A stretch of DNA of 64,000 nt from Flavobacteriaceae bacterium PRS1 (GTDB lineage: Bacteria; Bacteroidota; Bacteroidia; Flavobacteriales; Flavobacteriaceae), in the NCBI GenBank assembly GCA_003709165.1, contig RDRZ01000002.1:1-64000 (forward strand). The letters are read 5' to 3'. Both the position numbers and the translations under genes were made by a program. Of the stretch, positions 4,364-54,165 are shown piece after piece. The first letter of the stretch is position 1, and each line of letters starts with the position of its first letter. The notes under the pieces are model-generated. The model saw nothing but the letters and a program-made list of their open reading frames with translations. It had not been told where the DNA came from and ran no database searches.

Positions 4364-4816
4364 TTACTTGATTAGTTTTTTAACTCCTGTAAATAATATT
4401 GAACCAATAGCTAATATACCTAAAATATAAAATGCTACTAATCCAGCTCCAACTAAGTGAGACGACATTTCAGTTGCTATGCCTTCACTATGCTTGTATA
4501 CAGTTGGATCTCCTCCAGATAAAACATAAGATACTACTAATATAGCGACAAATGCTCCTAAACCTATTAAGGTGCTTTTTAAAGATCCAGTATCTGTAAA
4601 TAAATTTTTGATTACAAAACCTATAACAAATAACAAAACTATTACAAAAATCAAGTAGGCAACATAAGCCATATTGTCAACTAAACTTGTGTCTTCACCA
4701 GCTTCATAAGCCGAAGTAATTGCTGTATCGCCTTTAGAGATAATCATCACTAAAATTATAGCGCCAATTAAACTTAATACAGCAGCAAGTATCTTTAAAA
4801 TTTTATGTAAATTCAT
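4364..4816 (-). CDS. Small four-helix membrane protein in the exb operon
   Basis: This 150-residue protein has four predicted membrane helices (about residues 6-28, 50-72, 85-103 and 122-145) with short polar connections and no recognisable catalytic motif. It lies between exbB (26 bases upstream) and the first exbD (2 bases downstream), so it belongs to the same transcript and may be an accessory subunit of the ExbB/ExbD motor. I recognise the arrangement from flavobacterial genomes but know no function for the protein. Confidence 0.85.
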   Translation of the reverse strand: MNLHKILKILAAVLSLIGAIILVMIISKGDTAITSAYEAGEDTSLVDNMAYVAYLIFVIVLLFVIGFVIKNLFTDTGSLKSTLIGLGAFVAILVVSYVLSGGDPTVYKHSEGIATEMSSHLVGAGLVAFYILGILAIGSILFTGVKKLIK

Positions 4817-4842
4817 AATAATTATATTATTTTAAAGGGTTA

Positions 4843-5640
4843 TTACTTCTTGTGTCTGATTAATAAGTCCATCAATGTAATTGATGCATCTTCCATATCG
4901 TTAACTATACTATCTATTTTTGCAATAATGTAATTATAAAATATTTGAAGTATAATAGCTACTACCAAACCAAATACAGTTGTTAAAAGTGCTATTTTAA
5001 TACCTCCAGCAACTAATGAAGGGTTCATATCTCCAGCAGCTTCAATTTTATCGAATGCAGAAATCATACCAATTACTGTTCCCATGAAACCAAGCATAGG
5101 AGCCAATGCAATAAATAGTGCAATCCAAGACACGTTCTTTTCTAATTGTCCCATTTGCACACCTCCATAACTTACAACAGCTTTTTCAACCTGTTCCAAT
5201 CCTTCATCAACTCTATCTAAACCTTGATAAAATATAGAAGCTACAGGTCCTTTTGTGTCTCTACATATTTCTTTTGCAGCATCAACACCACCAGAAGCAA
5301 GTGCATCTTCTACGTTTTGAGTTAATTTTTTAGTATTTGAGGTAGAAAGATTTAAAAAGATAATTCTCTCAATAGAGATTGCTAAACCTAGAATTAAGCA
5401 TAATAATACAATGCCCATAAAACCTGCACCTCCTTCAATAAATCTCTTTTTTAATTCTTGATGAAATGTAGCTTCTTCAGCAGGAGCCGCATCATCTTCT
5501 TGAGTTAAACTTACAACCGTATTAACAATAGTGTTTGTGTTTGTGTTTGTGTTTGTGTTTGTGTTCGCATTTGTATTAGCATTTACAGTTCCGAATGTCA
5601 TAATACCAGCGATAGCCAGAATAGAAAATAATCTTTTCAT
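4843..5640 (-). CDS. exbB: MotA/TolQ/ExbB-family proton channel protein
   Basis: The 265-residue product starts with a signal-like hydrophobic segment, then an Asn/Thr repeat and an acidic stretch (residues 22-55), then the three-helix MotA/TolQ/ExbB core. The hallmark region APMLGFMGTVIGMISAFDKI lies in the second half. ExbB pentamers surround ExbD dimers and conduct protons. It is the first gene of the exbB-orf-exbD-exbD operon. The oddity is a hexanucleotide repeat encoding Asn-Thr pairs just after the signal segment (5531-5566); because the unit is 6 bp, changes in copy number stay in frame. Confidence 0.93.
   Translation of the reverse strand: MKRLFSILAIAGIMTFGTVNANTNANTNTNTNTNTNTIVNTVVSLTQEDDAAPAEEATFHQELKKRFIEGGAGFMGIVLLCLILGLAISIERIIFLNLSTSNTKKLTQNVEDALASGGVDAAKEICRDTKGPVASIFYQGLDRVDEGLEQVEKAVVSYGGVQMGQLEKNVSWIALFIALAPMLGFMGTVIGMISAFDKIEAAGDMNPSLVAGGIKIALLTTVFGLVVAIILQIFYNYIIAKIDSIVNDMEDASITLMDLLIRHKK
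5531..5566. repeat. Hexanucleotide tandem repeat in exbB
   Basis: Five perfect GTGTTT units and one GTGTTC unit lie in tandem on the plus strand, encoding Asn-Thr dipeptides of ExbB on the minus strand. They fall in the linker after the N-terminal hydrophobic segment. Confidence 0.95.
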
Positions 5641-5801
5641 TGATTTTAATCTTAAATTTTATTAGTTAAGGGTTAAAGATATAAAAAAAATGTAATTAAA
5701 AAATAAAAATTACGATAGAGAAGATAAGATTAACCTTGTTGATCTAATAAATCTCTTATTTGTGTGTCAAAGAAAATAAAACTAGTTATTATTCTCTTGT
5801 G

Positions 5802-5889
5802 CAGAGAGGAAGGGATTCGAACCCTCGATACGCTATTAACGCATACACGCTTTCCAAGCGTGCGCCTTCGACCGCTCGGCCACCTCTCT
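5802..5889 (-). tRNA. tRNA-Ser (anticodon GGA)
   Basis: On the minus strand the sequence folds as a class II tRNA. The acceptor arms AGAGAGG and CCTCTCT pair over 7 bp, followed by a D arm, an anticodon stem with loop centre TTGGAAA (anticodon GGA), a long variable arm (TATGCGTTAATAGCGTA) and the T loop GGGTTCGAATCCC. The long variable arm and the GGA anticodon identify tRNA-Ser reading UCC/UCU. The discriminator base is G and the following bases are not CCA, so the CCA end must be added enzymatically. Confidence 0.95.
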
Positions 5890-5963
5890 AAAAATTTATT
5901 TTTTTCTTACAGCGGTTGAAATAACAAAAAAAAACTTAACTGCTAAAGTTTTGATTGTTAATT

Positions 5964-6980
5964 TTAAGATATTTCACCTCTTAAAGAAGTTTCAAAAAGA
6001 GTTCTAAAGTCGTTTGAAGATAAATTTTTACCTAATAAATACATTAGTTTTGTAATTGCTGCTTCGGTTGTTATATCTTTTCCTGAGATAATCCCTATCT
6101 TTTTTAACTGTGTACTTGTTTCATATTGACCCATTGCTACACTTCCTCCCGAACATTGTGTTACATTAATAATATATATTCCTTTTGTTATAGCTTCTTT
6201 TAATAATGTAATAAACCAATCTTCAGTAGTGCAATTTCCTGCTCCATAAGTTTCTAAAACAATCCCTTTAAGGTTTGTAGAATTAAATATGGTTTGTAAG
6301 AGAGAACAAGAAATTCCTGGAAATAATTTTACAAGGGCAATATTAGTATCCATTTCTTTATGTACAACTAACTTTATTGTAGCATCTGGCTCAAGTAAAT
6401 AAGGAAAGTTAATTTTTAAATGGACTCCTGAAACTGCTAAATCCGGATAATTTAAGGAAGCAAATGCTTCAAAATGTTCGGCATTTATTTTTGTGGTTCG
6501 ATTGCCTCTGTATAATTTATACTCAAAATACAAACCTACTTCTTTTATTACAGGTTTGTTTTCTTTTAGTAACGATGCCACTTGAATAGAAGTGATTAAA
6601 TTTTCTTTGGCATCGGTTCTTAAATCTCCAATTGGTAATTGTGAGCCTGTAAAAATTACTGGTTTGGATAAGTTTTCTAACATAAAGCTTAATGCTGAAG
6701 CCGAATAACTCATTGTATCGCTTCCGTGTAACACAACAAAACCATCATAAGAGTTATAATTGTCTTCAATAATTTCAGCCCAATATTCAGGATTAATATT
6801 CGATGAATCTATAGGTTCATTAAATGAAATGGTTTGTATGGTACAATCTAAAAGTTTAAGTTCCGGAATCTTAATTATTAAATTATTAAAGTCGAAAGAA
6901 CGCAAAACTCCTGTTTCGGAATCTTTAATCATCCCAATTGTTCCTCCTGTATATATTAATAGTATGTTTGATGTCTTCAT
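5964..6980 (-). CDS. ansA: Type I (cytoplasmic) L-asparaginase
   Basis: The 338-residue enzyme hydrolyses L-asparagine to aspartate and ammonia. Both halves of the asparaginase active site are visible: the TGGTIGM motif at residues 11-17, with nucleophile candidate T14, and HGSDTM at 85-90. There is no signal peptide, which fits the cytoplasmic type I form. The start codon is 1 base after the tatD stop, so the two genes form an operon; the pairing has no obvious biochemical logic. The tRNA-Ser gene lies downstream on the same strand. Confidence 0.93.
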   Translation of the reverse strand: MKTSNILLIYTGGTIGMIKDSETGVLRSFDFNNLIIKIPELKLLDCTIQTISFNEPIDSSNINPEYWAEIIEDNYNSYDGFVVLHGSDTMSYSASALSFMLENLSKPVIFTGSQLPIGDLRTDAKENLITSIQVASLLKENKPVIKEVGLYFEYKLYRGNRTTKINAEHFEAFASLNYPDLAVSGVHLKINFPYLLEPDATIKLVVHKEMDTNIALVKLFPGISCSLLQTIFNSTNLKGIVLETYGAGNCTTEDWFITLLKEAITKGIYIINVTQCSGGSVAMGQYETSTQLKKIGIISGKDITTEAAITKLMYLLGKNLSSNDFRTLFETSLRGEIS

Positions 6981-6981
6981 T

Positions 6982-7749
6982 TTAAACTTTAAAAACGTCT
7001 TTAGAATTTGATGTAGTAATTTCGGCTATTTCTTCTTGTGATAACTCATATAGTTCCGATACCTTTTCTAACACCTTTAATATATAACTACTTTCATTGC
7101 GCTTCCCTCTATATGGTGTTGGCGATAAATATGGCGAATCGGTTTCTAATACTATATGTTTAAGGTCTATTTGATTTAGGAATTTATCTATTTTACCGTT
7201 TTTAAAAGTCACAACACCTCCAATACCAAGCTTCATATTATACGAAATGGCTTTATGAGCCTGCTCTAAAGTACCTGTGAAACAATGAAAAATTCCGAAT
7301 AAATCATCTGATTTTTCTTCTTCTAATATTTCAAATATCTCATCAAAAGCTTCTCTGCAATGTATTACGATTGGCAGTTTATATTGTTTTGCAAGTTTTA
7401 TTTGAGTTCTGAAAGCTTCTTGCTGAAAAGCTAAGGTTGATTTATCCCAATACAAATCAATCCCAATTTCACCAATCGCAATAAAAGAACGCTCTAATAA
7501 TAATTGTTTAACATGTTCTAATTCAGTCTTATAATTTTCTTTAACAGACGTTGGATGCAATCCCATCATTAAAAATACGTTTTCAGGAAAGTCTTTTTCC
7601 AACTGAAACATTGCTTTTGTGTAAGAAGAATCTATGGCAGGGATAAAAAAGCGTCTTACCTTTAAGTCTAAAGCACGCTCAATCATCTCTTTTCTGTCTT
7701 CATTAAAAGCTTCACTATATAAATGTGTATGAGTGTCTGTAATTATCAT
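6982..7749 (-). CDS. tatD: TatD-family metal-dependent deoxyribonuclease
   Basis: The 255-residue protein is a TatD-type amidohydrolase-fold DNase. Metal ligands expected for the family are present: HTH at residues 7-9, E94 in GEIGID, H130 in IHCRE, H155 in FHCF and D204 in ETDSPY. Family members show 3'-5' exonuclease activity on DNA and are linked to DNA repair. The gene heads the tatD-ansA operon. A -7 box TACTTTTG ends 4 nt before the ATG (7754-7761), which suggests a leaderless mRNA. Confidence 0.94.
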   Translation of the reverse strand: MIITDTHTHLYSEAFNEDRKEMIERALDLKVRRFFIPAIDSSYTKAMFQLEKDFPENVFLMMGLHPTSVKENYKTELEHVKQLLLERSFIAIGEIGIDLYWDKSTLAFQQEAFRTQIKLAKQYKLPIVIHCREAFDEIFEILEEEKSDDLFGIFHCFTGTLEQAHKAISYNMKLGIGGVVTFKNGKIDKFLNQIDLKHIVLETDSPYLSPTPYRGKRNESSYILKVLEKVSELYELSQEEIAEITTSNSKDVFKV

Positions 7750-7753
7750 ACAG

Positions 7754-7761
7754 CAAAAGTA
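7754..7761 (-). promoter_or_regulatory. -7 promoter box of tatD
   Basis: TACTTTTG matches the Bacteroidota -7 consensus TAnnTTTG and ends exactly 4 nt before the tatD ATG. No TTG is found at the usual ~20-nt spacing; the nearest candidate is at 25 nt. Confidence 0.5.
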
Positions 7762-7942
7762 AGGGTTTGTTAGGAAATAAAGTTTGCAAAAATAACGAAG
7801 TAATTTTGTTTATTTTAGAGGCGTAAAAATATTGAATAGCTATAGTTTATTCAACATCTTTACAACAAAGAAAGTAAGCAAAATAACAAGTCAAGATGTA
7901 AAGGTTATTTCATTAATCTATGATTCTTACTATTTAAAAAAA

Positions 7943-8380
7943 ATGACGTTACAAGAATTTCTTATACCGCAAGGCTATGTAAAAATTAAACTTAAGTTTA
8001 CGAAGACTAATCATTTTGAAATTAATGCAAGCATAAATGGCATTAAAGGCAAGTTTATTTTAGATACAGGCGCATCAAATTCATGTATTGGTTTTGATTC
8101 GGTTGAGACCTTTAATTTAAAAGTTGAAGATTCCGATGTTAAAGCAGCTGGAGCTGGTGCAACAGATATGTTGACAAAAATTTCTAAAAAAAATGTGGTT
8201 AAAATAGGTAAATGGGAAAAAGATAAGGTTGCATTAATTTTGTTTAATCTTACCTATGTTAATACTGCTTTAATTAATCATAACTCAAATCCTGTGGATG
8301 GTATTATTGGAGCGGATATTTTAAAAAAAGGAAATGCCATTATAGATTATCAAAAAAAACAATTATATCTTAAACTTTAA
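7943..8380 (+). CDS. Retropepsin-like aspartic protease family protein
   Basis: The 145-residue product has one aspartic-protease half-domain: the active-site motif DTGAS at residues 41-45 after a hydrophobic strand, and the second hallmark, GIIGADIL, near the C-terminus. Proteins of this size in clan AA work as homodimers. No signal peptide is seen, so it is probably cytoplasmic. I start at the ATG at 7943 because the protein then begins at the family's usual position; the frame stays open upstream to a TTG at 7832, which would add 37 residues. A possible -7 box (TAATTTTG, 7801-7808) leaves both starts open. The substrate is unknown. Confidence 0.82.
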   Translation: MTLQEFLIPQGYVKIKLKFTKTNHFEINASINGIKGKFILDTGASNSCIGFDSVETFNLKVEDSDVKAAGAGATDMLTKISKKNVVKIGKWEKDKVALILFNLTYVNTALINHNSNPVDGIIGADILKKGNAIIDYQKKQLYLKL

Positions 8381-8409
8381 TTATAACGTATTAAATCCCT
8401 ATACATTTC

Positions 8410-9015
8410 ATGAAGCCATCCATTATTATTGCCGATGACCACCCTTTAGTATTAAAAGGATTATATGATTTTTTAACCGAAAAAAACCACAATGTAGTTG
8501 GAAGCGCAACAAATGGTAAAGAAGCCTACGAATTAATAATTAAGCATAAACCAGACATTGCTATTTTAGATATTAGAATGCCTTATAAATCAGGTATAGA
8601 GATTACCGAAGCCTGTATAAGTAATAATATAAAAACAAAAATCGTGCTTATAACTTTCGAAAAGAGCGCACAACTTTACCATCAGGCAAAAGCATTAAAC
8701 GTTTCTGGTTATATACTTAAAGAATTTGCTTTAAGCGAAATTGAAAACTGCCTGACTGCCATTGAAAACAACAACCCTTTTTATAGTCCAGAAATTGAAG
8801 AATTTATGTTAACTCAAGAAGACGTAATTGATATGAGTATTTTAACACCTACCGAAAAAAAGATACTTAAATTAATTGCTCAAAATAAAACTGCTAAAGA
8901 GATTGGTGTTATTTTATTTACATCTAGCAGAACTGTCGAAAAACATAAAAGTCACATTATCAATAAACTAAATATAGAATCTCATCAGAATAGTTTATTG
9001 ATTTGGGCAAAATAA
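8410..9015 (+). CDS. LuxR/NarL-type response regulator
   Basis: The 201-residue protein joins a receiver domain (about 1-118) to a LuxR-type DNA-binding helix-turn-helix (about 140-198). The acidic pocket (D9, D10) and the phospho-acceptor D54 in ILDIRMP are present, and a conserved Lys lies in GYILKEF. It should be phosphorylated by a sensor kinase and then bind DNA. No kinase gene is adjacent, so it is an orphan regulator in this window. It starts 29 bases after the retropepsin-like gene, so a shared transcript is possible. Confidence 0.93.
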   Translation: MKPSIIIADDHPLVLKGLYDFLTEKNHNVVGSATNGKEAYELIIKHKPDIAILDIRMPYKSGIEITEACISNNIKTKIVLITFEKSAQLYHQAKALNVSGYILKEFALSEIENCLTAIENNNPFYSPEIEEFMLTQEDVIDMSILTPTEKKILKLIAQNKTAKEIGVILFTSSRTVEKHKSHIINKLNIESHQNSLLIWAK

Positions 9016-9317
9016 AATCAAGATTTCTTTTTGTAAATATACGTAACGTTACGTATTGTTTAGTGTCCTTTTATTACAGACATTTACAGTGCTATTAATT
9101 AGTCATTAGGGAGAATTAGCGAAAGCTCTGGGTTATTTTTAATTCAGAGCTTTCAAATTAAATCTTTTCCCTTTTTAATCTACATCCAGATTTATCTATT
9201 AATAAAAATAATAACCTTAGAAACAAGATTATTTTAATTGGATTAGTTGTTATAGTTATACTCGTTATTTCTATAAATTTTTTATAAATGAAAAAGCATT
9301 TTTTAAAAAGGTGCTTC
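9016..9317. other. Intergenic region with a hairpin and a start-less open frame
   Basis: This 302-bp gap contains a perfect 10-bp inverted repeat (9121-9154) that could terminate the response-regulator transcript. An open frame (9162-9287) has no ATG, GTG or TTG, and its end encodes a hydrophobic stretch resembling a membrane helix. I see no other feature. Confidence 0.5.
9121..9154 (+). terminator. Possible terminator hairpin after the response regulator
   Basis: GAAAGCTCTG pairs perfectly with CAGAGCTTTC across a 14-nt loop. The downstream tract is AT-rich with T runs but not a clean poly-T, so the terminator role is tentative. Confidence 0.5.
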
Positions 9318-9893
9318 CTATTCTTTCCATTTTAAGGTTTCCATAATATGCTGAATGTCTTTCTTAAGATAATCTGCGGCAGGAAGAATTGAATCATAAT
9401 TAGGCTTTACATAAAAGTATAAAGAACCCGTTAAAAAATGGGTAATACTATCGGTTACATAAAATTGGGCTTGTGATGCTACATTCCCATCTACTTCGTA
9501 AAACATACCATAAACACGCTGTTCAAGATTTCCAAATGACTGTCCTGTTATTGCATCTGCTTTTCTTGCATGTGATTGAGTAATATTTTGTGCATCATTA
9601 ATTAGCAATTGTAAATTATTGGCATCTATTTTTTTATATGTCAAAAAAATGGTTGCTTTAATAGTAGGATAAGTAACTTCTAAGCCTAAAGTTTTTTTAT
9701 TTCTTGATGATTTTATAACTCCTATTTTATTAGCAATACTGTTTTTTTTAAAAGTAAAGGGTAAGTTGGTATTAACTTCTTTATATTGTGGCTTAGGATA
9801 CTCTAATCTTAAAAATGCTTTTGGTTTTGGCATAGGTTCGTTACCGCAAGACATAAAAAAGACTATTGCAAAAAGGAAGAATATATTTTTCAT
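9318..9893 (-). CDS. gldD: Gliding motility lipoprotein GldD
   Basis: The 191-residue product has a lipoprotein signal peptide with the lipid-attachment Cys at residue 16 (context FFMSCGNEP) and the GldD-like start of the mature part (KPKAFLRLEYPKPQY). GldD is needed for gliding and T9SS function in Flavobacterium johnsoniae; its molecular role is not settled. I choose the ATG at 9893 over the GTG at 9905, because the GTG lies inside a short hairpin (9901-9914) and would add only four non-conserved residues. It lies downstream of gldE on the same strand, but a 360-bp gap with a dispersed repeat separates them, so it may be transcribed alone. Confidence 0.92.
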   Translation of the reverse strand: MKNIFFLFAIVFFMSCGNEPMPKPKAFLRLEYPKPQYKEVNTNLPFTFKKNSIANKIGVIKSSRNKKTLGLEVTYPTIKATIFLTYKKIDANNLQLLINDAQNITQSHARKADAITGQSFGNLEQRVYGMFYEVDGNVASQAQFYVTDSITHFLTGSLYFYVKPNYDSILPAADYLKKDIQHIMETLKWKE

Positions 9894-9943
9894 AGCATTG
9901 CCCACAAAAGTGGGTATCTTATTATAATTAAACAGTATTGTCA

Positions 9944-10175
9944 GGCTAAAGACATAAGACTGCTTCGCTATAAGAGCAAAGAATCAAGACTACATTATAA
10001 CTAATTGATATTGTATTAGTTAAAATTAATCAGGTTCAATAACTCGCGTTTCCTTGCATATTTTCAAAAGCAAGGTGTCAAATTTTAGAAACCTCTAAAT
10101 AACTTGTGCTGAACTTGTTTAAGTATAACAAACACAATGCTTTAGCGACTTATTAATTTTTTTACTAACAACAAT
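9944..10175. repeat. Dispersed intergenic repeat, copy B
   Basis: This aligns with 2095-2303. The best-kept part is the middle: AACTAATTGATA, GTTAAAATT, then TTCAATAA, then CTTGC(A)TATT...AAAGCAAGGTGTCAA; the right end is again TTAATTTTTTTACT followed by ACAACAAT. It holds no ORF and makes up most of the 9906-10253 gap between gldE and gldD. In that gap I see only this repeat and the small CCCAC-aaaa-GTGGG hairpin at 9901-9914. Confidence 0.7.
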
Positions 10176-10253
10176 GATAATTAAACTTTAGAGCTTGTCC
10201 AATAACTTTAAGTACTTACAACTTTATCACACTTTAAGTACTGTGTAGTTACA

Positions 10254-11585
10254 CTAATCTTTAATCGTAACTTTAATTTGTTTTATGCGTTTTTTATCTA
10301 TGGCTTCAATAGTAAAAACGTAATTATCAAAATTTATTTCACTTCCTTTTTTAGGAAAACTTCCGGAAACCTCTAAAACAAATCCAGCAATAGTTTCTGA
10401 TTCACCTTTTTTAGTTTCAAAAACAGTTTCATCTTCAAGCTCAATAATTTTATAAAAGTCTTTTAATGTTGTTTTTCCTTCAAACACAAAATTGTTTTCA
10501 TCGAGTTTAGAATATGTAAGGTCATCTACATCAAACTCATCACCAATATCACCTACAATTTCTTCTATAACATCTTCAAGAGAAACAAGCCCAGAAGTTC
10601 CTCCATACTCGTCAACTACAACAGCAAGATGCACTTTCTTTTCTTGAAATTCTACCATTAAATCGTCTAACTTTTTGTTCTCAGGCACAAAAAACGGTTC
10701 TCGAAGTAAGCTCGTCCAATCAAAATATTCTTTATCTAAATGAGGTAATAAATCTTTTACGTATAAAATACCCGAAATAGTATCTACATTATCTTTGTAA
10801 ACAGGAATTCTGGAATAACCATGTTTAATTATTTCGGGAATAATCTCGCTATATTTTAGATTTTCATCTAAAGCAAAAATATCAATTCGTGGTCGCATCA
10901 CTTGTTTAGTGTCAGTATTTCCAAAAGACAAAATTCCCTTTAATATTTTATGCTCTTCACTCGTTGTGTCTTCTTCACTGGTTAATTCTAAAGCTTGCGA
11001 TAATTTATCAATATTTAAATTAGATTTCTGTTTCCGTAATTTATTACTAATAGTTTTTGTTACTCTTTGCATTGGTAAACTTAAAGGCGAAAAAACAGTG
11101 TCTAATATTTTTAATGGATATGCCATGAATTTCGAAAACTTTAAATTATTCCGGCTGGCATATACCTTTGGTAATATTTCTCCGAAAAGCAAAATCAAAA
11201 ATGTGGCAGTAACTACTTTTAAAAAGAATACGAGATTAAATTCAAAAAAATAAAAATCAATAGCAGTATTAACATTTTTAAATAAAATATCGCTTATTGA
11301 AGCAAACAAAATAACAATAGCAATATTTATAAAATTATTGGCTATTAATATAGTCGCCAATAATTTTTGAGGGTTTTGTAAAAGTTTAGAAACTATCTCT
11401 ATAGGCTTGGATTTTTCTTCTAGAGCAGTATCAATATCTATTTTTGTGAGCGAAAACAAAGCGACTTCGGCACCCGAAATTAATGCTGAACATAGCAAAA
11501 GGAAAAATAAAATGACAAATCCAAATGCAATTGAAACATCAATTGTGTTAAGGTAGATAATTAAACTAAAGGGATCGGGATCCAA
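10254..11585 (-). CDS. gldE: Gliding motility-associated CNNM/CorC-like membrane protein GldE
   Basis: The 443-residue protein has an N-terminal membrane domain with several helices (about 20-155, including SGAEVALFSL typical of CNNM/DUF21 domains), then two CBS motifs (about 200-330) and a C-terminal transporter-associated HCC domain (about 350-440). General CNNM/CorC homologues are linked to magnesium or cobalt efflux; GldE is partly redundant with GldD-linked functions in gliding. The assignment to GldE rather than a generic hemolysin-family protein rests on the position next to gldD and downstream of ssb and mutY. It starts 24 bases after the ssb stop. Confidence 0.9.
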   Translation of the reverse strand: MDPDPFSLIIYLNTIDVSIAFGFVILFFLLLCSALISGAEVALFSLTKIDIDTALEEKSKPIEIVSKLLQNPQKLLATILIANNFINIAIVILFASISDILFKNVNTAIDFYFFEFNLVFFLKVVTATFLILLFGEILPKVYASRNNLKFSKFMAYPLKILDTVFSPLSLPMQRVTKTISNKLRKQKSNLNIDKLSQALELTSEEDTTSEEHKILKGILSFGNTDTKQVMRPRIDIFALDENLKYSEIIPEIIKHGYSRIPVYKDNVDTISGILYVKDLLPHLDKEYFDWTSLLREPFFVPENKKLDDLMVEFQEKKVHLAVVVDEYGGTSGLVSLEDVIEEIVGDIGDEFDVDDLTYSKLDENNFVFEGKTTLKDFYKIIELEDETVFETKKGESETIAGFVLEVSGSFPKKGSEINFDNYVFTIEAIDKKRIKQIKVTIKD

Positions 11586-22198: not shown

Positions 22199-22244
22199 AG
22201 CTTAAGCAATATTTTGTAAATTGTTCAATAATAAAATTTACATC

Positions 22245-22619
22245 ATGAACATGAATATCTTTCTTAAACTCTCGGCAATTTTATTTTTATCAATGACTCA
22301 GTCCTGTGATTCGACAAAAGCTTCAGCAACAGAGAAGAAAGCTGAAACAAATACAACCAAAGAAATGAACACATTAATTAGTGAAGGCTATGTAGCTGGA
22401 ACAATAAAATACCAGGTCGAAAGTAAATGCAGCTATATTCTTATTGATGAGAAAACTGGTATTAAATACGACCCTGTTAATATAGGTGAAGAAAAATTTA
22501 TGCCGTATAAAAATGATGCCAACAAAGTATATTTCAAATATCTTTCTTTACGAAGAATGAATAGATGTAATGAGGCAAGCCCTGTCCAACTTATTGATAT
22601 TCAATTAAGACAGGAATAG
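22245..22619 (+). CDS. Small lipoprotein of unknown function
   Basis: The 124-residue protein has a lipoprotein signal peptide with Cys 21 (TQSCDSTK), a Thr/Lys/Ala-rich linker (about 22-50) and a small domain of about 75 residues with two further Cys (contexts SKCSYIL and MNRCNEA) that could pair. I prefer the ATG at 22245 to an upstream TTG at 22221, as the signal peptide then has a normal length; ATG 22251 is also possible. It follows the SprA-like gene by 46 bases, so the two may be co-transcribed. A 32-bp palindrome terminates it. Confidence 0.8.
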   Translation: MNMNIFLKLSAILFLSMTQSCDSTKASATEKKAETNTTKEMNTLISEGYVAGTIKYQVESKCSYILIDEKTGIKYDPVNIGEEKFMPYKNDANKVYFKYLSLRRMNRCNEASPVQLIDIQLRQE

Positions 22620-22646
22620 ATTCTTCAACATAAAATTTGGAGCATA

Positions 22647-22678
22647 AAGAAATCCAAAACAATTGTTTTGGATTTCTT
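22647..22678. terminator. Bidirectional terminator
   Basis: A 32-bp perfect palindrome with arms starting AAGAAATCCAAAACAA separates two convergent genes. It has A and T runs on both sides of the stem, so it can work in both directions. Confidence 0.8.
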
Positions 22679-22695
22679 CTATTACATAATTAAAG

Positions 22696-25600
22696 TTATT
22701 TAACCACTATGCGCTTAATATTACTGGCTCTATTATTTCCGATCTTTACAAAATAAATACCAGCCGCAACATGAGACATATCTAATCTATATTCATAGCC
22801 CCGTCCAGTTTCATTTTCAAGTGTTCGCCACATTAAGTTTTGACCAAGAACATTTAATATATTCATATTGAGTCGCTCATTAATAGTATTAGTAGGTAAT
22901 TTAATCAAGAATTGATTGTCTTCTTCATAAATTACTGTAATACCTTCCTGAACTAATACATTGTCGATTGACAAAGTCATATTACCACATAGCTGAAGCG
23001 ACCAATCAAAAAGTGTACCTTGATCAACATTAGCGTTATCTGTAATTACCAGCGACCAATCTCCCATAGAGCTTAAACCATCCAGTGTGGCTAAACTACC
23101 CTCCGGTTGAAAAGTACCATTATAAGGTGGCGCACCTGATGTAATAGGTGTTGCCGCTTCGTCATCAAACACTGTAGTCATATAATTATCCCCAGTGCTT
23201 CCATTTCGATCAGTTAAAACAACTTCTACCGTATTACCTGGTGAGAATAACGAAATACTTAAATCATCATCCCATGTATGCTCTATGTTTACGGTTATAT
23301 TCACATCATCAATCACAAAATCATCCGTAAAATTGATTATAGAAGTTGTAATTGTTCCACCGTCTGGTCCTATTTGCTGAGCTGTTGTATTTGATAGCGT
23401 TTGACATTCCAAATTCGTAATTGAAGTGTTAGCCGTATTATTACTTCCATCTGAATCACCTGCCAATAGTGTACTTGAAGAAATAGCATAAGTTGCCGGC
23501 GTTGATAAATTGGCTGTAATGACAAAATCATACGAAATTGAACTTCCAGGATTTACGGTAGCGGCAACCATTTCAACAACAGGCGTTCCACTGTCAATAA
23601 TATAATTTACATTAAAATTAGATTGTGCTGCTGTCCCAAAATTCTCTATGGTAATAGTAACCATTTCGTTGATTAATCCCTCACCACTTACTGGGGCAGT
23701 AATTGCAGTAACACCTATATCAGTGGCAGATACATGTAAAACGTTTTCAGTTGCACAATCGTTGCCCGTATCTTCGTCTATACCTAAAGTTGTACAGGAC
23801 ATTATTGAATATGTTTGACCTTCAGTTGAAAGATCGGCTGTGGTGACAAATACATGCTGCGATGTTGTTTGTGATGCTAAAGTACCCACAAATGCTTCGG
23901 TGATTACGGGACCACCATCAACCTGATAGGTTATATTAAAACCAGATGCAGCATTATCTCCAAAATTAAAGACAGTAACTGTAACTGTTTCAGCATTTGT
24001 TAATGTGCCATCTGTAGGTGTATCAACACTTATTACACCTACATCATCCATGGGATTAGTCATATTACCACAAAGCTGAAGCGACCAATCAAAAAGTGTA
24101 CCTTGATCACCATTAGCGTTATCTGTAATTACCAGCGACCAATCTCCCATAGAGCTTAAACCATCCAGTGTGGCTAAACTACCCTCCGGTTGAAAAGTAC
24201 CATTATAAGGTGGCGCACCTGATGTAATAGGTGTTGCCGCTTCGTCATCAAACACTGTAGTCATATAATTATCCCCAGTGCTTCCATTTCGATCAGTTAA
24301 AACAACTTCTACCGTATTACCTGGTGAGAATAACGAAATACTTAAATCATCATCCCATGTATGCTCTATGTTTACGGTTATATTCACATCATCAATCACA
24401 AAATCATCCGTAAAATTGATTATAGAAGTTGTAATTGTTCCACCGTCTGGTCCTATTTGCTGAGCTGTTGTATTTGATAGCGTTTGACATTCCAAATTCG
24501 TAATTGAAGTGTTAGCCGTATTATTACTTCCATCTGAATCACCTGCCAATAGTGTACTTGAAGAAATAGCATAAGTTGCCGGCGTTGATAAATTGGCTGT
24601 AATGACAAAATCATACGAAATTGAACTTCCAGGATTTACGGTAGCGGCAACCATTTCAACAACAGGCGTTCCACTGTCAATAATATAATTTACATTAAAA
24701 TTAGATTGTGCTGCTGTCCCAAAATTCTCTATGGTAATAGTAACCATTTCGTTGATTAATCCCTCACCACTTACTGGGGCAGTAATTGCAGTAACACCTA
24801 TATCAGTGGCAGATACATGTAAAACGTTTTCAGTTGCACAATCGTTGCCCGTATCTTCGTCTATACCTAAAGTTGTACAGGACATTATTGAATAGGTATT
24901 ACCTTCTGTTGACAGATCTGCCGTTGTAGCAAATACATGCTGCGATGTTGTTTGAGATGCCAATGAGCCCACAAACGCTTCAGTGATCACTGAACCACCA
25001 TCAACCTGATAGGTTATATTAAAACCAGATGCAGCGTTGTCTCCAAAATTAAAGACAGTAACTGTAACTGTTTCAGCATTTGTTAATGCACCATCGGTTG
25101 GTGTGTCAACACTTATTACACCTACATCATCCATAGTATTAGGTGCCAATTGAAATACACCCGCAATATTTTTCCGTCCAGTAGACATTAATTCATTGAC
25201 GAACCAGAATTTTTTATCACCATCCGGGTCAATATCAATTTTACTATAATCACCATAACGTCCAGCACCTCCTGGAATATCTGCATCACCTGCCATTATA
25301 ACTTCTTCGTCTATAGCCATTGTACCTAGAGCATCATTGGCAAATCGCCCAGAATAATATGAGCCTACTCTTACATTTGGATCGGTACTATTTGGGCTTG
25401 ACATGGATGTATAACCTAATCCTATATTACCTAGTATATCCATAATCATGCTTGCATTCCAAGCATGTCTATTATCTGGTGCGGTATAGGTTCCTTCCTG
25501 AAAAACACTCCAAGGCTGATTATCACCCGATTGTCTCAATTCATACCATCTTACTCCAGCTTGTTTTGTTGCTGTGCCATCTACATCAACGACAAAATTA

Positions 25601-26760
25601 AACACTGCCGAGTTATGTCCTGCAAACTTTCTGAACTGTGCTTGGTTCATTATTGTCGCTTGTAAAGCATCAATAGGAACACCTCCGCCAGGTTGAACTA
25701 AGTTATTAAAACTACCGCCATCAAAAACACTTACAAAGGGTGTCACTGTTCCGGTACCAGCATCAATTCCTAATTGAGTTGCAGCAGATACTGTTGAATT
25801 TCCTATCGTTACCCAATCCATATCAATGGTCCAAAGTTTTATATGATCTTGTACAATGCCTCCACCAAATGCATCATCTTGCATATACACAACGGTAGCA
25901 CCGCCAGTAGCTGGTAAATTATTATTACTTACGTTTAAGACTTGCAGACCATGAAAACCAAAAGTTACTAAACCTGGTAGATTAAAACTCGTTATTTGAG
26001 GTGTGGTTCCTGCTCCTGGAGGATCGATCATGGCATCTCTTTCAAAAACATGAATTTTATTAACAGACCCCGTGTTATCGGTCATATAATATCCATCACT
26101 CCAAACAGATAATTTTTGATAATCATTTACAACAGCCCATGTGTATACGGTCCAACTATCAGTTACTGGATCCGGTCCATCAGAAACTGCTATAGTAACA
26201 CCAGCACCTAAAATAGTTATCACCCATTTGTCTGCTGCATTGTCATAAGAAGCAGTTAAATCACAACAATAATCACCATCAACTCCGCCAAAAATATTGT
26301 TAGGTCCTAACAATGCTGTTAATGGATTACCACTTTTATCAAAAATCCTAAACGCTGTATTTATAACAGCAAAGTAATGGTTTGGTCCTACGGCTCCAGC
26401 AGGATCTGTTGGTTGTGAATTGGAAGCAGCTGTTTCAAAAACAAGCTCAGGCGGATCTGTTGGAATCTTATTTGTTAAATAATAAGGGGCTTTGGTTAAG
26501 ATGTCATCTCCTTTTGACCCTTTTCCTGGAACAACATCAAATTTTGAAGCTCTTTGCCTTCCATCTTGCATTTCCTTAAACTCGCTAAGTTCTGCAACAA
26601 CAAGATTTGTTCTTGAAGCAATTGAAGGAACATGTTCAACTTTTGTAGGGTAACCTGAATAAGTTGGTCCTTGGGGCTTATTTTCAATTTGTTGTGCTAT
26701 AAGTAAGTTAGTACTAAATAAAAAAAAGAAAATAAAAAGCCTGTGTAGTTTTATTTTCAT
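22696..26760 (-). CDS. Giant T9SS-exported surface protein with duplicated CARDB and P domains
   Basis: The 1354-residue protein has a signal peptide (1-22), an N-terminal region of about 530 residues, then two copies of a 361-residue block and a C-terminal T9SS type A sorting domain (last ~75 residues, ending IKRIVVK). Each block holds two CARDB-like Ig modules (DIGVTAITAP and DDVGVISVDTP starts) and one proprotein-convertase P domain (WDDDLSISLFSP...GDWSLVITDNA). The N-terminal region (TDPAGAVGPNHYFAVIN) may form a beta-propeller; I see no protease triad. It is a secreted, surface-attached protein of unknown activity. The tandem blocks are nearly identical at DNA level. Confidence 0.88.
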   Translation of the reverse strand: MKIKLHRLFIFFFLFSTNLLIAQQIENKPQGPTYSGYPTKVEHVPSIASRTNLVVAELSEFKEMQDGRQRASKFDVVPGKGSKGDDILTKAPYYLTNKIPTDPPELVFETAASNSQPTDPAGAVGPNHYFAVINTAFRIFDKSGNPLTALLGPNNIFGGVDGDYCCDLTASYDNAADKWVITILGAGVTIAVSDGPDPVTDSWTVYTWAVVNDYQKLSVWSDGYYMTDNTGSVNKIHVFERDAMIDPPGAGTTPQITSFNLPGLVTFGFHGLQVLNVSNNNLPATGGATVVYMQDDAFGGGIVQDHIKLWTIDMDWVTIGNSTVSAATQLGIDAGTGTVTPFVSVFDGGSFNNLVQPGGGVPIDALQATIMNQAQFRKFAGHNSAVFNFVVDVDGTATKQAGVRWYELRQSGDNQPWSVFQEGTYTAPDNRHAWNASMIMDILGNIGLGYTSMSSPNSTDPNVRVGSYYSGRFANDALGTMAIDEEVIMAGDADIPGGAGRYGDYSKIDIDPDGDKKFWFVNELMSTGRKNIAGVFQLAPNTMDDVGVISVDTPTDGALTNAETVTVTVFNFGDNAASGFNITYQVDGGSVITEAFVGSLASQTTSQHVFATTADLSTEGNTYSIMSCTTLGIDEDTGNDCATENVLHVSATDIGVTAITAPVSGEGLINEMVTITIENFGTAAQSNFNVNYIIDSGTPVVEMVAATVNPGSSISYDFVITANLSTPATYAISSSTLLAGDSDGSNNTANTSITNLECQTLSNTTAQQIGPDGGTITTSIINFTDDFVIDDVNITVNIEHTWDDDLSISLFSPGNTVEVVLTDRNGSTGDNYMTTVFDDEAATPITSGAPPYNGTFQPEGSLATLDGLSSMGDWSLVITDNANGDQGTLFDWSLQLCGNMTNPMDDVGVISVDTPTDGTLTNAETVTVTVFNFGDNAASGFNITYQVDGGPVITEAFVGTLASQTTSQHVFVTTADLSTEGQTYSIMSCTTLGIDEDTGNDCATENVLHVSATDIGVTAITAPVSGEGLINEMVTITIENFGTAAQSNFNVNYIIDSGTPVVEMVAATVNPGSSISYDFVITANLSTPATYAISSSTLLAGDSDGSNNTANTSITNLECQTLSNTTAQQIGPDGGTITTSIINFTDDFVIDDVNITVNIEHTWDDDLSISLFSPGNTVEVVLTDRNGSTGDNYMTTVFDDEAATPITSGAPPYNGTFQPEGSLATLDGLSSMGDWSLVITDNANVDQGTLFDWSLQLCGNMTLSIDNVLVQEGITVIYEEDNQFLIKLPTNTINERLNMNILNVLGQNLMWRTLENETGRGYEYRLDMSHVAAGIYFVKIGNNRASNIKRIVVK
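22975..24057. repeat. 1083-bp tandem duplication, unit 1 (C-terminal block)
   Basis: This unit aligns without gaps, at an offset of 1083 bp, with 24058-25140. From 23028 to 23811 (784 bp) I see no difference by eye; outside that block there is roughly 10% divergence. One non-synonymous change lies near the 5' edge on the plus strand (Val here, Gly in unit 2). Confidence 0.95.
24058..25140. repeat. 1083-bp tandem duplication, unit 2 (N-terminal block)
   Basis: This is the partner of 22975-24057; the block 24111-24894 matches 23028-23811. The first CARDB module of the two units differs at five residues, while the second CARDB and the P domain are otherwise identical. Confidence 0.95.
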
Positions 26761-26854
26761 AATAAGTAGGTTTTAATATGGAGTTAAGAATCGTAAAGAT
26801 AATTTATTTTTAATTAAAAATAAAGCAAGCTTTATCTTAGCAATATGATTTTAT

Positions 26855-54040: not shown

Positions 54041-54110
54041 GTTGAACTTCCCTGATTAGTGTTGACTGGTTTAGTCAATTTATATTAGGGATGTACAACA
54101 TACAAGTTAC

Positions 54111-54159
54111 TGAACACTGAACACTGAACACTGAACACTGAATACTGAATACTGAATAC
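54111..54159. repeat. Heptanucleotide tandem repeat before sufD
   Basis: Four TGAACAC units and three TGAATAC units follow each other without interruption, ending 6 bases before the sufD ATG. The array occupies the place of a ribosome-binding site, and no Shine-Dalgarno sequence is seen between it and the ATG. Confidence 0.95.
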
Positions 54160-54165
54160 TAAACA

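Follow-up and report, generated by a model that had tools for sequence, protein, structure and literature searches.

How can two adjacent segments of one gene be identical over hundreds of bases and yet differ at more than a tenth of the bases just beside them? The question is raised by a gene for a predicted surface protein of 1354 aa in the window, the whole 64,000-nucleotide stretch of DNA that was analysed. The gene holds two in-frame units of 1083 bp, 361 codons each, arranged head to tail (22975-24057 and 24058-25140). The encoded protein consists of a predicted signal peptide, an N-terminal region of ~540 aa, two CARDB-CARDB-P units and a T9SS type A sorting tail, laid out as follows:

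22696-26760, minus strand: surface-protein gene, 1354 aa (open reading frame list and domain search)
25141-26760, minus strand: N-terminal region (aa 1-540), no Pfam match
24058-25140, minus strand: unit 1 (aa 541-901), with CARDB1 at 25134-24808, CARDB2 at 24807-24496 and the P domain at 24495-24058
24895-25140, minus strand: diverged CARDB1-side stretch of unit 1, 29/246 differences to unit 2
24111-24894, minus strand: 784-bp core of unit 1, identical to the core of unit 2
24058-24110, minus strand: far end of unit 1 past the core, 2/53 differences to 22975-23027
22975-24057, minus strand: unit 2 (aa 902-1262), with CARDB1 at 24051-23725, CARDB2 at 23724-23413 and the P domain at 23412-22975
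23812-24057, minus strand: diverged CARDB1-side stretch of unit 2, 29/246 differences to unit 1
23028-23811, minus strand: 784-bp core of unit 2, identical to the core of unit 1
22975-23027, minus strand: far end of unit 2 past the core, 2/53 differences to 24058-24110
22702-22917, minus strand: T9SS type A C-terminal sorting domain (aa 1282-1353), Por_Secre_tail, TIGR04183

Pfam models match the protein in four CARDB stretches, two P_proprotein domains and the C-terminal Por_Secre_tail. The latter scores 35.0 bits against a cut-off of 27 (PF18962, E 1.7e-08), in agreement with NCBIfam (TIGR04183, 27.3 bits against a cut-off of 23, E 2.6e-06). Because of this tail and of a signal peptide assigned by visual inspection, the protein is predicted to be secreted and attached to the cell surface via the T9SS tail. 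The N-terminal region had no Pfam match in any of the five family members searched and gave a poor AlphaFold model (pLDDT 41.7, five sequences as input); a profile search of this region against solved structures returned a single match, with an E value of 0.48, which we take as chance. The CARDB-CARDB-P unit was modelled as all-beta with fair confidence (pLDDT 73.7), its pTM of 0.49 making the arrangement of the domains unreliable, so that a rod shape is not readable from the model. Searched by sequence against solved structures, the unit had no relative at E <= 0.01. In the structure search, the best fold matches of the model were multi-domain beta-sandwich proteins, e.g. transglutaminases; Kex2 and an Aeromonas serine protease, both of which we take to carry P domains, stood lower (E ~2e-5 to 5e-5, TM-scores 0.22-0.25). 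These matches to a predicted model are consistent with the Pfam assignment and indicate nothing beyond it.

The two units differ at 31 of 1083 bases in total, and these differences are very unevenly distributed. At a lag of 1083 the sequence matches itself in an exact run of 784 bp, which ends at a sharp border at 23811/23812, and the two differences past its other end sit at 22990 and 23027 (unit 2 positions). When differences were placed at random (20,000 placements, in a register shifted by 6 nt and with 34 differences), the longest clean run was 126 on average and at most 336, against the 784 observed. An earlier note on this DNA had described two adjacent 361-codon blocks spanning 22975-25140, an identical core at 23028-23811 and 24111-24894, and a flank of ~250 bp diverged by ~10 per cent; the aligned units bear out the coordinates, the blocks and the exact run, and the flank measures 11.8 per cent. 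Along the two units the differences form a mosaic of 29/246, 0/784 and 2/53. The note had described the core as holding the second CARDB and the P domain; it also takes in the final ~29 residues of CARDB1, its edge falling at ~aa 622, within that domain (aa 543-651). The junctions of the units coincide with domain borders; when the sequences ahead of unit 1, between the two units and past unit 2 are compared, only a few bases are shared outside the unit itself. No further copy of the unit was found elsewhere in the genome assembly, which is estimated to be 84.65% complete. Tandem Repeats Finder left the 1083-bp repeat blank because of its period limit of 500.

The two parts of the mosaic also differ at silent sites. 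Between the units, the CARDB1-side stretch has a dS of 0.49 and a dN of 0.04 (dN/dS ~0.08), and the core has zero changes over ~184 synonymous sites; fourfold-degenerate third positions are alike at 30/44 in CARDB1 versus 130/130 in the core. These values mean that the CARDB1 copies drifted for a long time under purifying selection, mostly at synonymous sites. For calibration, the neighbouring gene of ~1135 aa has a dS of 1.07 to its counterpart in the same-genus genome G003, with 150 of 298 fourfold sites alike, which makes the duplication younger than the split from G003 and far from recent. Judged from these sequence comparisons, the duplication would be much older than the identity of the core.

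The surface-protein gene sits between the genes for glycyl-tRNA synthetase and for the ~1135-aa protein. The same arrangement is found at locus L034, where the latter protein has 1134 aa, and at L035 two tandem copies of the gene lie between the same neighbours. In G003 the flanking genes are adjacent, 333 nt apart, and the surface-protein gene is absent (L219 113-447, compared with window positions 22199-26854); the whole gene has therefore also been gained or lost. Searches of four same-genus genomes yielded either partial matches (best E 3.4e-24) or no match. In genome G002, glycyl-tRNA synthetase has efflux-type neighbours instead. Two contigs of a same-genus bin (G001:C115 and G001:C65) match part of glycyl-tRNA synthetase, with identities of 93% and 74%, perhaps through contamination.

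At E <= 1e-40, 87 of the 397 same-family genomes contain homologues of the N-terminal region, several of them with two or three matches, and this ~540-aa region marks an uncharacterised and widespread Flavobacteriaceae family. Our comparison set comprised 34 distinct proteins with this region, the window's own included, taken from the matches listed: the best ones among the 87 of 397 genomes plus those of two further homologue searches. Among the matches listed, none of the 33 other family proteins has the doubled unit, and relatives that bear a P domain carry CARDB-CARDB-P once, with the exception of the second gene of L035; the remaining relatives have a C-terminal part without a match to the CARDB or P models used here. 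The long homologues (11 proteins at 10 loci, including the L035 pair) also lack a doubled unit, and eight of the nine outside the L035 pair show no match to the CARDB or P models. Two of the 34 proteins are cut by contig ends. One of these, L036, stops inside CARDB2; a repeat could interrupt an assembly at such a point, but the case is only suggestive. The window's two CARDB1 copies group as sisters in the tree with support of 100/96, these domain trees having few columns and many weak forks; the nearest outside CARDB1 is 76-78% identical to them at the protein level. Since the CARDB1 copies are sisters and the 33 other proteins are without a doubled unit, the duplication is lineage-specific.

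Two relatives are of particular use for comparison. The protein of L034 (982 aa) has the same N-terminal region, CARDB1-CARDB2-P domains, sorting tail and neighbours, but a single unit only. The second L035 gene, 1239 aa long when counted from its ATG, belongs to the same family, stands beside a tandem gene copy and has an internal domain duplication of its own. This duplication differs in repeating CARDB2-P only, resulting in CARDB-CARDB-P-CARDB-P; its copies are 62% (CARDB2) and 53% (P) alike, and the longest exact in-frame self-repeat is 14 nt. L035 as a whole (4426-11389) thus carries the family gene twice in tandem, with a CARDB2-P duplication of old date in the second copy. In a separate observation, L034 and L048 pair as sisters in the P-domain tree (78% identity) but not in CARDB1, which hints at an exchange of C-terminal domains between lineages.

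The history that we propose begins with a head-to-tail duplication of the CARDB1-CARDB2-P block at domain borders, which would have taken place in the lineage of this organism after its split from the nearest relatives compared. The two copies would then have drifted apart, mainly by synonymous changes, until recombination between the units copied a tract that starts inside CARDB1 and stops shortly before P ends, the old differences staying outside the copied tract. The simplest route would be one gene-conversion event; expansion and contraction by unequal crossover would give the same outcome. We put the probability of a lineage-specific tandem duplication whose core was later homogenised by recombination, with gene conversion as the simplest route, at roughly two in three. 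As expected of a conversion tract, a clean stretch of 0/784 lies between older differences of 29/246 and 2/53, the second flank being thin, with the old divergence on the P side based on two of 53 bases only. The earlier note had proposed an older duplication with a homogenised core, and the dS of 0.49 outside and 0 inside, with older differences on both sides, agrees with it; its choice of gene conversion specifically goes further than these data.

Could the core be identical simply because selection forbids any change in it? The strong purifying selection on CARDB1 would fit such an explanation. The protein identities of the window's domains to those of L034 and of the two L035 proteins (L035a and L035b) are 0.62-0.73 for CARDB1, 0.61-0.62 for CARDB2 and 0.53-0.56 for P, so that the core, at 53-62%, is no better preserved than CARDB1. 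Between species its rate of evolution is no lower than that of CARDB1, and synonymous sites in it change freely. Selection does not account for the identity of the core, which is not intrinsically conserved between species, and we give this explanation next to no chance. An unlikely, though more serious, alternative is that the whole unit was duplicated recently and the CARDB1 stretch of one unit was then replaced by a diverged allele from another strain or species. This would produce the same sharp border and the same identical core, and the sister P domains of L034 and L048 suggest that domains are swapped within the family. No donor was found among the sequences compared, which include only four same-genus genomes, the nearest outside CARDB1 being the one at 76-78%; moreover, a second event would be needed for the two differences past the opposite end of the core (22990 and 23027).

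The two further alternatives depend on how the genome was assembled. When 120 contig ends (60 of 61 contigs) were compared, 24 pairs, involving 22 ends, were found to share exactly 55-59 terminal bases, and none to share 12-54. Such termini are the mark of a short-read de Bruijn graph with k=55, the usual top value of metaSPAdes, which is a likely assembler. The earlier note's worry about short-read assembly at this repeat was therefore well founded. In a k=55 graph the 784-bp core forms a single node that the path enters twice, with the inner CARDB1 as a loop; the loop requires the core to be present at least twice and leaves the number of passes free, which puts the number of units at two or more. 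Even with a third unit or further ones the duplication would not be an artefact, because a core copy stands on each side of the diverged inner CARDB1 and two is the floor. An array of at least three units, expanded and contracted by unequal crossing over and perhaps still longer than two units today, is compatible with such a graph, which cannot count passes through 784-bp repeats by read spanning, and with the varying make-up of the relatives, mostly CARDB1-CARDB2-P and in one case CARDB1-CARDB2-P-CARDB2-P. It needs two events, compared with one for conversion, and no extra copy exists elsewhere in the genome assembly; we regard it as quite improbable. The perfect core might also be a product of the assembler, two ordinarily diverged copies having been merged by bulge collapse. 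Isolated differences in the core would form bulges and may have been collapsed, which could not happen to differences that are near the unit ends or as dense as in CARDB1, and the surviving differences are in places that offer no 55-base anchor for closing a bulge. We simulated such collapse in 4000 trials with assumed bulge sizes of 165 (3k, from the SPAdes defaults), 500 and 5000, counting a trial as matching the observed pattern when it kept a clean run of 784 or more and no fewer than 20 CARDB1-side differences. With divergence spread uniformly along the unit, the mosaic came out in no more than 0.3% of trials at any setting tried, including the largest bulge size. A core truly diverged by 1% looked perfect in ~30% of trials, by 2% in 6-11% and by 3% or more in under 4%. 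The mosaic is therefore real, and the true divergence of the core is bounded at ~2-3%. The core that the earlier note called perfectly conserved is perfect in the assembly and, more strictly, at least about 97-98% identical. An origin of the mosaic in the assembler is thus very improbable, even though metaSPAdes is described as merging bulges aggressively (PMC8021871) and the shared contig ends point to a graph of this kind.

Duplication followed by homogenisation of the core, our preferred reading, is nothing out of the ordinary, and the protein is of a type already known. Periscope Proteins (PMC8201768, PMC9704523) have folded domains repeated in tandem almost without change, placed between an N-terminal region and a C-terminal signal for attachment, and their high DNA identity is offered as the substrate of intragenic recombination. 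The present protein resembles them in its two 361-aa units, which differ at 31/1083 nt and are all-beta in the model. It differs from the proteins described there in that only two units appear in the assembly, each composed of three domains (CARDB-CARDB-P, 361 aa), in that a T9SS tail takes the place of sortase or autotransporter attachment, and in that the identity is a mosaic. Fibrillar adhesin-like proteins (PMC9210967) likewise have stalk-like domains in several copies, together with an N-terminal region that lacks annotation; here, in contrast, no adhesive domain was recognised. The main text of PMC9210967 has no mention of CARDB, and that of the periscope review PMC9704523 has 0 occurrences of 'bacteroid' or 'type ix'. 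A literature search by titles and abstract openings retrieved no CARDB-P-T9SS proteins with tandem units. Each unit would add three beta-sandwich domains, and hence length, between the N-terminal region and the anchor, so that by analogy with periscope and fibrillar proteins the units may form a stalk. A bolder and rather doubtful proposal would be a T9SS-secreted periscope-like protein with an extensible CARDB-CARDB-P unit, in which recombination keeps CARDB2-P alike while CARDB1 diversifies, and in which length and the CARDB1 face vary within the species. The differences in unit make-up known here are between species, and variation of unit number within a species would be an extension of them.

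The locus provides a clean and small case of a duplicated block that was later partly homogenised, set in a predicted Bacteroidota surface protein; the phylum goes without mention in the main text of the periscope review (PMC9704523). In addition, shared 55-base contig termini expose the short-read graph behind an assembly and thereby limit what can be claimed about perfect repeats in such genomes. Much shorter tandem repeats are present elsewhere in the window: a hexamer-type repeat of GTGTTT with 5.8 copies at 5531-5584, and ~8 copies of the 7-base unit ACTGAAC at 54109-54165, a possible contingency repeat.
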